Shown here: piece by piece, positions 42,453 to 54,688 of the stretch
Numbering within the stretch: position 1 is the first letter of the stretch
Layout: each line of letters opens with the position of its first letter
Source of the DNA: Streptomyces candidus
Lineage (GTDB): Bacteria; Actinomycetota; Actinomycetes; Streptomycetales; Streptomycetaceae
Direction of reading: 5' to 3'
Length of the DNA stretch: 64,000 nt
Assembly (NCBI RefSeq): GCF_014207445.1
Contig: NZ_JACHEM010000006.1
Location: forward strand, 1 to 64,000
Notes under the pieces: model-generated
What the model was told of the DNA's origin: nothing
Databases searched by the model: none
What the model saw: only the letters and a program-made list of their open reading frames with translations
Position numbers and translations under genes: made by a program

Positions 42453-43037
42453 GTGAACAGCCTCGATCCCCTCGCCGCCCGGCTCCGCGCCCTGCCACCG
42501 TCCTGCGGTCCGGTGCGTCTGGTCGCCGTGGACGGGCACGCGGGTTCCGGCAAGAGCACCTTCGCCGCGCGCCTGTCCGACGCGCTGGGCGCGGCCCCCG
42601 TACTGCATCTGGACGACCTGGCCAGTCACGAGGAGCTGTTCGACTGGACCGGCCGGCTGCGCTCGGGGGTGACCGGCCCGCTGTCCCGCGGCGAGTGCGC
42701 GCGGTTCGCGCCGTACGACTGGACGCGCCGCCGGTTCGGGCCGGCCCTGTACGAGCTGCCGCCCGCCCCGGTCGTGCTCATGGAGGGCGTGGGTGCGGGC
42801 CGGCGCGCACTGCGCCCCTTCCTTGCCCACCTCTTCTGGATGGATCTGTCGGCCGCACGATCCTGGCGGCGCGGCCGGGAACGGGACGGAACGGAGCAGT
42901 CCGCTTTCTGGGACGGCTGGACTGCGGCGGAGGCCCGGCATTTCTCGTCGGATCCTTCCCGTCCGTTCGCCGACACTCTGGTACGGCAGGGACGGGAGGG
43001 GTACGAGTGGCGCCCGGGACTCCGCACGACCGCGTGA
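42453..43037 (+). CDS. small P-loop kinase (uridine kinase-like)
   Basis: A 194-aa cytoplasmic protein with Walker A AVDGHAGSGKSTFAAR near residue 30, an acidic LHLDDLASHEELFDW where uridine kinase-type enzymes bind substrate, and VVLMEGVGAG as Walker B-like strand. It resembles uridine kinase/nucleoside kinase-like proteins but is shorter; the substrate is uncertain. The GTG at 42453 looks leaderless: TAGGGT (42440-42445) ends seven bases before it. It is divergent from the C39-like gene. Confidence 0.82.
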   Translation: MNSLDPLAARLRALPPSCGPVRLVAVDGHAGSGKSTFAARLSDALGAAPVLHLDDLASHEELFDWTGRLRSGVTGPLSRGECARFAPYDWTRRRFGPALYELPPAPVVLMEGVGAGRRALRPFLAHLFWMDLSAARSWRRGRERDGTEQSAFWDGWTAAEARHFSSDPSRPFADTLVRQGREGYEWRPGLRTTA

Positions 43038-43123: not shown

Positions 43124-43153
43124 TTGACCCAGGGGGCGTACAGGTCTTACGTT
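43124..43153 (+). promoter_or_regulatory. HrdB-type promoter TTGACC-N18-TACGTT
   Basis: TTGACC at 43124-43129 and TACGTT at 43148-43153 with an 18-bp spacer form one of the best vegetative promoter matches in the window. It is followed at once by two hairpins rather than by a conventional gene. Confidence 0.6.
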
Positions 43154-43157
43154 CTCA

Positions 43158-43230
43158 ATGTGCGGCTTTTCGAAGCCGCCCGCAGACACGAAGCCCCCGG
43201 TTGTTCCCCCGTGATCGGGGGCTTCGTTCT
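43158..43230 (+). ncRNA. candidate small RNA or attenuator with two hairpins
   Basis: Starting at the expected transcription start, GCGGCTT-TTCG-AAGCCGC (43162-43179) forms a UUCG-capped hairpin. It is followed by CGAAGCCCCCG / CGGGGGCTTCG (43189-43199 with 43216-43226), a terminator-like stem. The product would be about 70 nt. The same stretch also reads as an 18-codon frame from ATG 43158 (MCGFSKPPADTKPPVVPP, stop at 43212-43214), which could be leaderless. So it may be an independent sRNA, a leader peptide/attenuator for the ATPase gene 230 bp downstream, or just a promoter-proximal terminator. Confidence 0.4.
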
Positions 43231-43461
43231 GCCCTCAGCCACCTCCCCCGACCGCACGGCAACCCGGTTCGCTCACCCAGGGTCACCATCCGTGCGGGAC
43301 TCGTTGCACCCTTATTCACCTGCCACATGCCCAGGTACGATGCTCTTCGGTGCGGTCAATTCCCGTCCGGGACAGAGCGGTTCAGGCAAGTGCCAACGGC
43401 ATCAGGCCTTCGGTGCACGCCCGACAGCACATCGCGGGGGGCACGGTCTGTGGGGGACGTG

Positions 43462-45348
43462 ATGGACTTCGGCACGCAGGGCACGCACGCCCCGGCCGAC
43501 CTCGCCTGGCTGCGCGGCGTGGACGCCTACACGATGGGGGCGTACCCACAGGCCGAGGAGGAATTCCGGACGGCGGTACGGCTGGACCCCGGCATGGCGG
43601 ACGGCTGGCTCGGCCTGCACGCCCTGCGCATCGACACGACGACGGCTCTCCTGCGCATGCACCGTCACCGGGACCGGTTCGGCGAGCAGCGTGCCAGGCA
43701 CCGCAGGACGCTCAACTCCTGGTACTGGCTCGGCTGGTGGGTGCAGCCGGTGCTGGAGAGCCCCCGCGACCTGCTGCTCGCCCACGCCTCGCACTGGCTG
43801 GACGGGCGTCATGTCCCGGAGCTGGACCGGGCGTTGGCGGGACTGCCGCCGGTGGACACCGACAGCCACGTCAGGTTCCTCTACGCGTGCCGGGCGTATC
43901 TGGTCAAGGACTGGGAGCAGCTGGTCCGGCACACGGACCCCCTCGTCGACGACCCGCTCCTGGGCATCGAGTCCGGTCTCTTCGGCGGGATGGCACGGGT
44001 GAGGCTGGAGATGTTCGGGCAGGCCGAGCCGCTGCTCGCGGCCTCCCTGATGCGCTGCCGAAGTGAGCAGCCGCAGCGCAAGGAGCTGCGCTACTGGCTG
44101 GCGCGGGCGCACGAGGGCACGGGCCGCAGCGCCGCAGCACTCCCCCTGTACCGGTCGGTGCACCGGGTGGACCCGGCTTTCATGGACACCGCCGCGCGGC
44201 TGGCGGCGATCTCCGAGGGCGACGGTCTGGACGGCTACGACGAGACGGCGGCCGGACTCGCCGCGGTGTCGAGGGCGGGCGCCGGGAACAGTCAGGAGGC
44301 GGCCGAAGCCCAGGGCGACGCGGATCCGCCGGACGGCGGTGATCTGCGGCTGGGGGGAGACGGACAGCTCCCGTTCGGCGGGGCCGTACCGCCGGGGCCA
44401 CCCACCGGGGTACGGGAGAAGCCGGGACCGCCGCTGCCCGCCGGGCTGCCGCCCTTCCCGGCCGGGCCGTCCGATCCGGCGCTCCTGGAGCAGGCGCTCG
44501 GGGAACTGGACCGGATGGTCGGCATGGAACCGGTGAAGCGCCAGGTGCGCGCGCTGTCCGCGCAGTTGAACATGGCCCGGCTGCGGGCCGGCCAGGGACT
44601 GCCCGTCCAGCCGCCGAAACGTCACTTTGTCTTCTCGGGCCCCTCCGGGACGGGGAAGACCACGGTCGCCCGGATCCTGGGGCGGGTCTTCTACGCCCTG
44701 GGGCTGCTGGGCGGGGACCACCTGGTGGAGGCGCAACGGGCGGATCTGGTCGGTGAGTTCCTCGGCCAGACCGCCGTGAAGGCGAACGAGCTGATCGACT
44801 CGGCGATGGGCGGTGTCCTCTTCGTCGACGAGGCCTACAGTCTCGCCAACTCCGGCTACAGCAAGGGCGACGCGTACGGCGACGAGGCCCTTCAGGTCCT
44901 GCTGAAACGGGCCGAGGACAACCGGGACCACCTGGTGGTGATCCTCGCAGGGTACCCGGAGGGGATGGACCGGCTGCTGGCCGTCAACCCGGGGCTCTCG
45001 TCGAGGTTCACCACCCGGGTCGACTTCCCGAGCTACCGCCCGCTCGAACTGACGAGCATCGGCGAGGTACTGGCCGGGGACAACGGGGACGCCTGGGACG
45101 AGGAGGCGCTGGAGGAGCTGCGGAGCATCAGCGCGCACGTCGTCGAGCAGGGATGGATCGACGAGCTGGGCAACGGGCGGTTCCTGCGGACGCTGTACGA
45201 GAAGAGCTGCGCGTACCGCGATCTGCGGCTGTCGGGGTACGCGTCGACGCCGACGCGGGACGAGTTGGCGACGTTGCGGTTGCCGGATCTGATGCAGGCG
45301 TACGGGGAGGTGCTGTCGGGGCGGGGGCCGGTGGGGGGAGGGATGTAG
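43462..45348 (+). CDS. EccA/CbbX-like AAA ATPase with TPR domain
   Basis: A 628-aa cytoplasmic protein. The N-terminal half (about 10-270) is helical and TPR-like (GAYPQAEEEFRTAVRLDPGM). A Pro/Gly-rich linker (about 285-345) follows, then a CbxX/CfqX-type AAA domain with SGPSGTGKTTVAR (about 392-404), GVLFVDEAYSL (about 451), a pore/sensor region and SRFTTRVDF. Order and size match EccA of type VII secretion, but no other ESX gene is present here, so the true client is unknown. The ATG at 43462 has GGGGGA four bases upstream. Expression may be affected by the hairpin unit upstream. Confidence 0.85.
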   Translation: MDFGTQGTHAPADLAWLRGVDAYTMGAYPQAEEEFRTAVRLDPGMADGWLGLHALRIDTTTALLRMHRHRDRFGEQRARHRRTLNSWYWLGWWVQPVLESPRDLLLAHASHWLDGRHVPELDRALAGLPPVDTDSHVRFLYACRAYLVKDWEQLVRHTDPLVDDPLLGIESGLFGGMARVRLEMFGQAEPLLAASLMRCRSEQPQRKELRYWLARAHEGTGRSAAALPLYRSVHRVDPAFMDTAARLAAISEGDGLDGYDETAAGLAAVSRAGAGNSQEAAEAQGDADPPDGGDLRLGGDGQLPFGGAVPPGPPTGVREKPGPPLPAGLPPFPAGPSDPALLEQALGELDRMVGMEPVKRQVRALSAQLNMARLRAGQGLPVQPPKRHFVFSGPSGTGKTTVARILGRVFYALGLLGGDHLVEAQRADLVGEFLGQTAVKANELIDSAMGGVLFVDEAYSLANSGYSKGDAYGDEALQVLLKRAEDNRDHLVVILAGYPEGMDRLLAVNPGLSSRFTTRVDFPSYRPLELTSIGEVLAGDNGDAWDEEALEELRSISAHVVEQGWIDELGNGRFLRTLYEKSCAYRDLRLSGYASTPTRDELATLRLPDLMQAYGEVLSGRGPVGGGM

Positions 45349-54270: not shown

Positions 54271-54462
54271 CGGGTCTCCTGCCTCTTCGGGCACGGACTC
54301 CGGGGCCTGTCGATGACGACAGAGGAAGCGGGCACACGTCACGGGATGCGGAAGCACGGCCACGCCGGGCCGGAACAGAGGGTCGTTCCGCGCGCGCACG
54401 TCATGTGCCTGCACGGACCACCCGCCGACGGCGGCGTACCAAACGACCTGTGACGGCCCGCC

Positions 54463-54586
54463 GCGCACTGCCTCCCATCCGGACTTTCACCGTCGGTCCA
54501 GGAATTACACCTGGTCAACCGGTCACTGGAGGTGACCGGGTCGCGGACTATAACCGCCGGTTCGGAATTACACCGACCCCGGAGTG
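54463..54586 (-). promoter_or_regulatory. FMN riboswitch (RFN element)
   Basis: Read on the minus strand: GGGTCGGTGTAATTCCGAAC, ACCGGCGGTTATAGTCCGCG, a variable hairpin (GGTCACC / GGTGACC), then CCAGGTGTAATTCCTGGACC, GACGGTGAAAGTCCGGATGG and GAGGCAGTGCGCGG. These are the conserved blocks of the RFN element in the right order. FMN binding would lower expression of the rib operon. About 190 bp lie between it and ribD. I could not identify a clear terminator/antiterminator there, so control may act on termination or on translation. Confidence 0.93.
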
Positions 54587-54688
54587 CGCTGCTGCTGGTA
54601 CACGGCAAGTGTGCCACGCCCGGCCGCGGCGTGGGCCGGAGGGACCTGTGGATTGACTCACAGCACCTGTGGGCCGGATCACATTTAA

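Follow-up and report, generated by a model that had tools for sequence, protein, structure and literature searches.

Between two protein-coding genes of Streptomyces candidus lies a short stretch of DNA in which a promoter-like sequence is followed closely by two potential RNA hairpins. The locus raises the question of whether this stretch is a small RNA (sRNA) gene in its own right, a leader of the EccA-like ATPase gene downstream, the terminator of the gene upstream, or the carrier of a short peptide. The evidence from the window (the whole stretch of DNA that was analysed, 64,000 nt) and from related genomes favours, with a probability of roughly 0.6, an independent sRNA gene that is the orthologue of the published scr1434, has its own promoter and two hairpins, and most likely acts in trans via a C-rich loop. 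Functionally characterised Streptomyces sRNAs are very few, according to the part of PMC8388888 consulted. The one considered here is near-universal in the genus, and the available part of PMC3765725 describes it as highly expressed at a developmental switch in three species. The transcript and its developmental timing were established by others, in three other species; added here are the covariation of the RNA across the family, its near-fixed loop, the rejection of an encoded peptide, and a list of candidate targets together with the counter-evidence.

Promoter and hairpins

The elements of the proposed gene are as follows.

43124–43129, + strand: -35 element TTGACC of the sRNA promoter
43148–43153, + strand: -10 element TACGTT, separated from the -35 element by an 18-nt spacer
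43158–43230, + strand: sRNA of about 70–75 nt, with a predicted start at 43158–43160 and a predicted end at about 43227–43232
43162–43179, + strand: hairpin 1, 7 bp, GCGGCUU-UUCG-AAGCCGC, from the fold
43188–43227, + strand: hairpin 2, 16 bp, with arms at 43188–43203 and 43212–43227; probable terminator and loop platform
43204–43211, + strand: apical loop UUCCCCCG of hairpin 2, near-invariant; proposed pairing site

The promoter, which the sequence-only reading had called strong, is present and conserved, but it matches the E. coli consensus at just 8 of 12 positions and was absent from the output of a promoter scan with a threshold of 9 of 12 against that consensus. The alignment comprised 90 loci, window included, of which 89 were usable and one was masked by N. 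In 86 of the 89, TTGACC and TACGTT are both identical, and the spacer is 18 nt in 86 of 89. The promoter pattern as such was matched by 88 loci, with TTGACC in all 88; the remaining usable locus (L081) combines TTGACC with a -10 element TGCGTT. A UUCG-capped hairpin 1 is likewise present in the window, whereas UUCG occurs in the hairpin-1 region of only 29 of 82 distinct homologues, so that the cap itself is not a general feature. Hairpin 2 had been called terminator-like. Two overlapping sites were returned for it by a terminator scan in which 2.5 sites were expected by chance over the 16 kb scanned, but no long U-run follows the stem on its 3' side; it probably ends transcription.

The 181-nt stretch containing these elements folds more stably than its dinucleotide shuffles (z = -2.75; equalled by 1 of 200). 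A chance origin is disfavoured mainly by conservation, since BLAST matched the sRNA in 142 of 150 genomes of the genus (the own genome counted), and the folding score provides lesser support. In the own genome (7.4 Mb) the sRNA is present in a single copy; a further 12 hits with E up to 10 all have E values of at least 0.4.

Conservation of the stems and the loop

The sRNA gene is conserved well beyond its own genus, across Streptomycetaceae. A covariance model built from alignment A1 (82 distinct RNA rows) matched, at E ≤ 0.01, 182 of 200 genomes of the family, representing 16 of 17 genera, with a few of the matches weak and off the locus. This tally is wrong in both directions: two genomes (G239 and G315) scored as hits and have no sRNA at the locus, and seven genomes that had given no hit contain a diverged sRNA. 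The loci that were read comprised 30 and a further 60, the latter chosen with a preference for weaker matches, which leaves 52 of the 142 BLAST-positive genomes unread. All named matches to hairpin 2 among those listed (80 of at least 120) belong to Streptomyces; S. coelicolor, S. avermitilis, and S. venezuelae are not among these named matches.

Within the genus, hairpin 1 shows changes on both sides in 3 of 5 counted pairs, with 89.4% of cells paired. In hairpin 2, only 1 of 16 pairs is doubly changed and 5 of 16 are changed on one side; as the stem is nearly invariant there, the genus alone says little about it. Across the family, where 34 distinct stems were selected by an exact match to the loop TTCCCCCG, 14 of 16 pairs are doubly changed and 97.4% of cells are paired. 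The 91 doubly changed cells compare with 18.1 in shuffled alignments, none of which (0/500) scored as high. In several other genera, the stem of hairpin 2 is wholly different in sequence and pairing is kept. Both stems, the conservation of which the sequence-only reading had made its touchstone, are therefore retained in related genomes with covariation. The invariance of the loop is not readable from the 34-stem set because its rows were chosen by the exact loop; it is apparent from alignment A1, in which 81 of 82 rows carry UUCCCCCG (the exception, L033, has one C fewer), and from the 20 other-genus loci found by the covariance model, all of which carry it. Altered loops occur in three diverged loci (L429–L431). 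A stem that is free to change as long as it pairs, topped by a near-fixed C-rich loop, indicates that the loop is the working part of the molecule, and such a loop offers a direct, mutable handle for target finding.

A near-invariant loop on a stem with changeable sequence and maintained pairing would also fit an RNA that binds or titrates a protein via the stem and the UUCCCCCG loop instead of acting as an antisense molecule. We regard this alternative as unlikely, as pairing through a C-rich loop has a direct actinobacterial precedent in B11 (PMC10470900, in the part available).

A total of 28 genomes with no BLAST or model hit, or with weak hits only, were searched for the EccA-like protein; 27 gave some match, not all of them orthologues, and 20 loci were fetched. 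Seven of these contain a diverged sRNA (L429–L432, L434, L437, and L440), two are ambiguous (L435 and L436), and the remaining 11 have an EccA-like gene ahead of which no sRNA was found. When these 11 genomes and five others were searched whole with the model, nothing scored above 37 bits. Eight of the genomes with an EccA-like gene and no sRNA found upstream of it (L421, L423–L426, L428, L433, and L438) belong to the same genus and measure 5.6–8.0 Mb; in the six such loci that were checked (L421, L423–L426, and L433), the genes on either side are both in place. Lineage-specific losses are a possible explanation for these eight absences.

In a search of the class (296 genomes, stricter filters), the top match outside the genus reached 45.4 bits. 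The most diverged true members score 45.8–46.3 bits, and 33–39 bits among the diverged sRNAs just described; since 45.4 bits overlaps the scores of diverged true members, the class-search score alone is not decisive. Four out-of-genus loci were read (L258–L261), and in these neither a match to a neighbour gene, nor a TTGACC promoter of the right spacing, nor a UUCCCCCG-capped stem was found. In particular, UUCCCCCG is absent altogether from L258–L260 and occurs once in L261, away from the hairpin. The four loci were rejected as members of the family and are considered ordinary palindromes. Some class-search matches hit a single palindrome on both of its strands, a behaviour typical of ordinary terminators.

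Relation to the neighbouring genes and to scr1434

The genomic context of the sRNA includes the following features.

42453–43037, + strand: AAA_33-like nucleotide-binding gene, the upstream syntenic neighbour (Pfam, 26.9 bits, just below the cut-off of 27)
43158–43214, + strand: 18-codon frame MCGFSKPPADTKPPVVPP, with ATG at 43158 and TGA at 43212–43214; judged to be no gene
43334–43343, + strand: conserved GGTACGATGC, with TACGAT at 43336–43341, from the conservation profile of 90 sequences
43450–45348, + strand: EccA-like AAA ATPase gene (T7SS_EccA1_N and AAA by Pfam), starting at GTG 43450 or ATG 43462; not part of the sRNA
54461–54591, - strand: FMN riboswitch RF00050 (99.1 bits), followed by a ribD-like gene (by eye) and ribE; anchor for SCO numbering

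The best NCBIfam match of the EccA-like protein is TIGR03922 (EccA), at 298 bits and under the cut-off of 466.65, and on its sequence the gene may encode either EccA or a CbxX-type protein. It lies on a different contig from the ESX-type locus (contig C2). The GGTACGATGC block is likely to be the -10 element of the EccA-like gene's own promoter.

A translation-sensing attenuator ahead of this gene had been one suggestion of the sequence-only reading. As a leader acting in cis, the RNA would be extended by read-through, hairpin 2 would be placed upstream of the gene, and the loop would cover the G-tract ribosome-binding site of the EccA-like gene, to which it is complementary. Moreover, the EccA-like gene lies downstream of the sRNA on the same strand in 20 of 20 loci from other genera (the AAA_33-like upstream neighbour was recognised in 16 of these 20). 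However, the conserved, separate -10-like block lies between the sRNA and the gene, the distance from the sRNA loop to the gene varies (179–371 nt in 186 of 187 loci and 565 nt in one), and the 11 genomes described above keep the gene with no sRNA found. In addition, PMC3765725, in the part available, treats the published RNA as an intergenic sRNA. Control in cis is therefore improbable, and action in trans is favoured by the gene's own promoter-like block, the varying spacing, and the persistence of the gene without the sRNA.

It is very improbable that the element merely terminates or stabilises the transcript of the upstream gene and plays no regulatory part. Hairpin 2 could well serve as a terminator for that gene, which shares its strand, but a terminator has no need of a near-unchanging loop, and the conserved promoter begins about 90 nt past the stop codon of that gene.

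The RNA had also been proposed to encode an 18-residue peptide with its stop in the loop of the second hairpin. In the 16-bp model, the TGA at 43212–43214 instead opens the 3' arm. An ATG is found within 8 nt of the -10 element in 72 of 89 homologues; relative to the loop TGA, it is in frame in 33 and in the other two frames in 30 and 9, and of these frames 38 read on and one stops early. ATG, frame, and stop are thus kept together in only 33 of 89 homologues, and the peptide is judged not to be conserved. The frame shifts freely because the length between the hairpins changes, and in the alignment insertions and deletions fall there. Furthermore, the ATG at 43158 is located at or just before the expected +1 (43158–43160), so that it would be leaderless at best and may even be missing from the transcript. 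A conserved peptide with leader-peptide attenuation was rejected on the scatter of frames (33/30/9), and a translation-sensing leader peptide or a dual-function RNA encoding MCGFSKPPADTKPPVVPP is, despite the frequent ATG, extremely unlikely in view of that scatter, the position of the insertions and deletions, and the ATG at the expected +1. The peptide and attenuator idea can largely be dropped.

The independent sRNA very probably has a published counterpart. In the part of PMC3765725 available (Moody et al. 2013), scr1434/sar6912/svr1031 is described as highly expressed, with northern signals peaking at aerial hyphae formation and sporulation, and as forming a very stable stem-loop, the loop being rich in C; it is counted as non-protein-coding. 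In that paper, sRNAs are named after the right-hand gene, which places scr1434 just left of SCO1434. The legend of an RFN element figure states that SCO1443 is riboflavin synthase (PMC4681348, in part). In the window, eight genes separate ribE from the EccA-like gene: a PnuC-like gene (by eye), ribBA, ribH, hisE, hisG, an unnamed gene, and two CorC/PaeA-like genes (below cut-off). Counting nine genes back from ribE (SCO1443), the EccA-like gene corresponds to SCO1434, given the same gene content in S. coelicolor, and an offset of one gene is possible. By this count the sRNA lies just left of SCO1434, and, like scr1434, it has a very stable stem-loop and a C-rich loop. Hence, we infer from gene order that it is the orthologue of scr1434/sar6912/svr1031, and the element has very probably already been described as an sRNA. 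The sRNA proposed from the sequence thus stands, both because its two stems covary and because RNA-seq and northern blotting detected an RNA at the corresponding gene-order position in three species. Within the literature collection searched, no paper on scr1434, svr1031, or sar6912 was found beyond PMC3765725. Control by HrdB has been reported for 75 of 105 known S. coelicolor sRNAs (PMC6344877, in the part available).

Candidate targets and related RNAs

A mechanism in trans can be proposed as follows. The sRNA promoter would give rise to an RNA of about 70–75 nt with two hairpins; the long stem of hairpin 2 would end transcription and display the near-fixed loop GUUCCCCCGUG; and the C-rich loop would pair in trans with G-tracts at ribosome-binding sites and block translation, as mycobacterial 6C/B11 does. 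In the case of B11, eccB4 (ESX-4) is repressed by pairing of the loop with a G6 ribosome-binding site, as supported by compensatory mutants (PMC10470900, in part). Pairing with G-rich ribosome-binding sites is a reasonable mechanism for the sRNA as well; the EccA-like neighbour and ESX genes would be candidate targets, and the link to ESX is put forward as a hypothesis. The site in question in the EccA-like gene is the following.

43436–43456, + strand: G-tracts in the start region of the EccA-like gene, G6 at 43436–43441 and G5 at 43452–43456; possible loop pairing site

A G5 tract lies between -45 and +3 of the EccA-like gene in 186 of 187 loci (167/167 of the genus and 19/20 of the family), counted from 190 loci examined, three of which had no located start, and with species duplicates possible. 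The base rate was taken from 360 genes, which our own script called in the window and 400 kb of the own genome: 25 of the 360 have G5 no more than 25 nt from the start, the own EccA-like gene included, and 36 have it between -45 and +15. When these 360 genes were ranked by the energy of their duplex with the loop, an EsxA-like gene was second, the EccA-like gene fourth, and the adjacent EsxB-like gene eleventh, the ranking of the Esx genes being noticed after the fact; the first rank went to an ABC-type gene (by eye). The EsxA/EsxB-like pair lies near EccD- and EccC-like genes (by eye) and gave no match in a Pfam search. A paper of 2010 deals, by its title, with EsxA/EsxB in S. coelicolor sporulation. 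The pair carries the FNG and FQA motifs, which are described for EsxA and EsxB of S. scabies (PMC8401907, in the part available).

Conservation of the G-tracts was compared between these candidates and controls. The ribosome-binding region of the EsxA-like gene contains G5 in 17 of 20 leaders that are otherwise dissimilar by eye; for the EsxB-like gene, G5 occurs in 7 of 20 and G4 in 19 of 20, with several starts uncertain. The EsxA-like gene was found in just 18 of 61 genomes, far fewer than have the sRNA. Control counts were made on the best 30 loci of each search. Of two control genes, which we take to be GlsB-like and DUF4193-like, the former has G5 in 1 of 30 loci (the own genome) and the latter in 30 of 30, with the entire leader conserved. 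For the first-ranked ABC-type gene, a lenient criterion accepting any candidate start gave G5 in 23 of 30 loci. As control genes also keep G-tracts, no target is established. The G-tract as a target signature is suggestive and not diagnostic, since GGGGGAG includes the ordinary Shine-Dalgarno core. Moreover, G5 is retained in 10 of the 11 EccA-like loci that lack a detectable sRNA, which counts against co-evolution of the sRNA and the G-tract.

The perfect 11-mer complement of the loop, CACGGGGGAAC, occurs at nine sites in the own genome, the sRNA itself included. None was accepted as a target, as none falls where a convincing gene would clearly have its ribosome-binding site: the site at L302 directly adjoins the ATG of a frame of 94 codons with poor composition, and the site at L309 precedes a 400-codon frame of good composition at an uncertain distance from its start. 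In two of the 167 loci of the genus (L052 and L056), the EccA-like leader contains CACGGGGGAAC, the exact 11-nt complement of the loop; in the related L054, the leader is one base off CACGGGGGAAC.

On a broader reading, the scr1434 family would be a second kind of C-loop RNA, independent of 6C, that acts in Streptomyces at sporulation to control type VII secretion via the G-tract starts of the EccA-like and EsxA/EsxB genes. We consider this reading quite doubtful; if it were true, actinobacteria would have evolved C-loop control of ESX genes on at least two occasions.

Among known RNAs, scr1434/sar6912/svr1031 is the probable counterpart of the element: the genomic slot by gene order, the intergenic position, the very stable stem-loop, and the C-rich loop are shared, and no difference was seen. 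The published description, in the part of PMC3765725 available, includes neither a target nor family-wide covariation. The same source describes scr5583/sar2652/svr5279 as a conserved Streptomyces sRNA with a C-rich terminal loop; this RNA belongs to a different locus by its number and is likened to the element by description only. Of the Rfam families, only FMN reaches its gathering score within the window. The best weak hit over the element, sbcD RNA (RF01757), scores 19.2 bits where the gathering score is 40 and is treated as chance; membership of the element in an Rfam family was rejected, the weak hits being taken as chance, and 6C (RF01066) is not among the 10 Rfam matches at E ≤ 10 over the element. 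Like the element, 6C RNA, which includes the mycobacterial B11, is a small actinobacterial RNA with C-rich loops, and S. coelicolor 6C, too, reportedly increases at sporulation (PMC8388888, in part). In contrast to the element, which has one C5 loop, 6C has two hairpins each with six or more C; the loop of hairpin 1 in the window has no C run, and so the element lacks the two C loops that characterise 6C. A separate 6C RNA is encoded elsewhere in the own genome (G000:C12:112911–112988, - strand, L441; 56.2 bits). With this 6C RNA besides the element, at least two RNAs with C-rich loops coexist in the genome.
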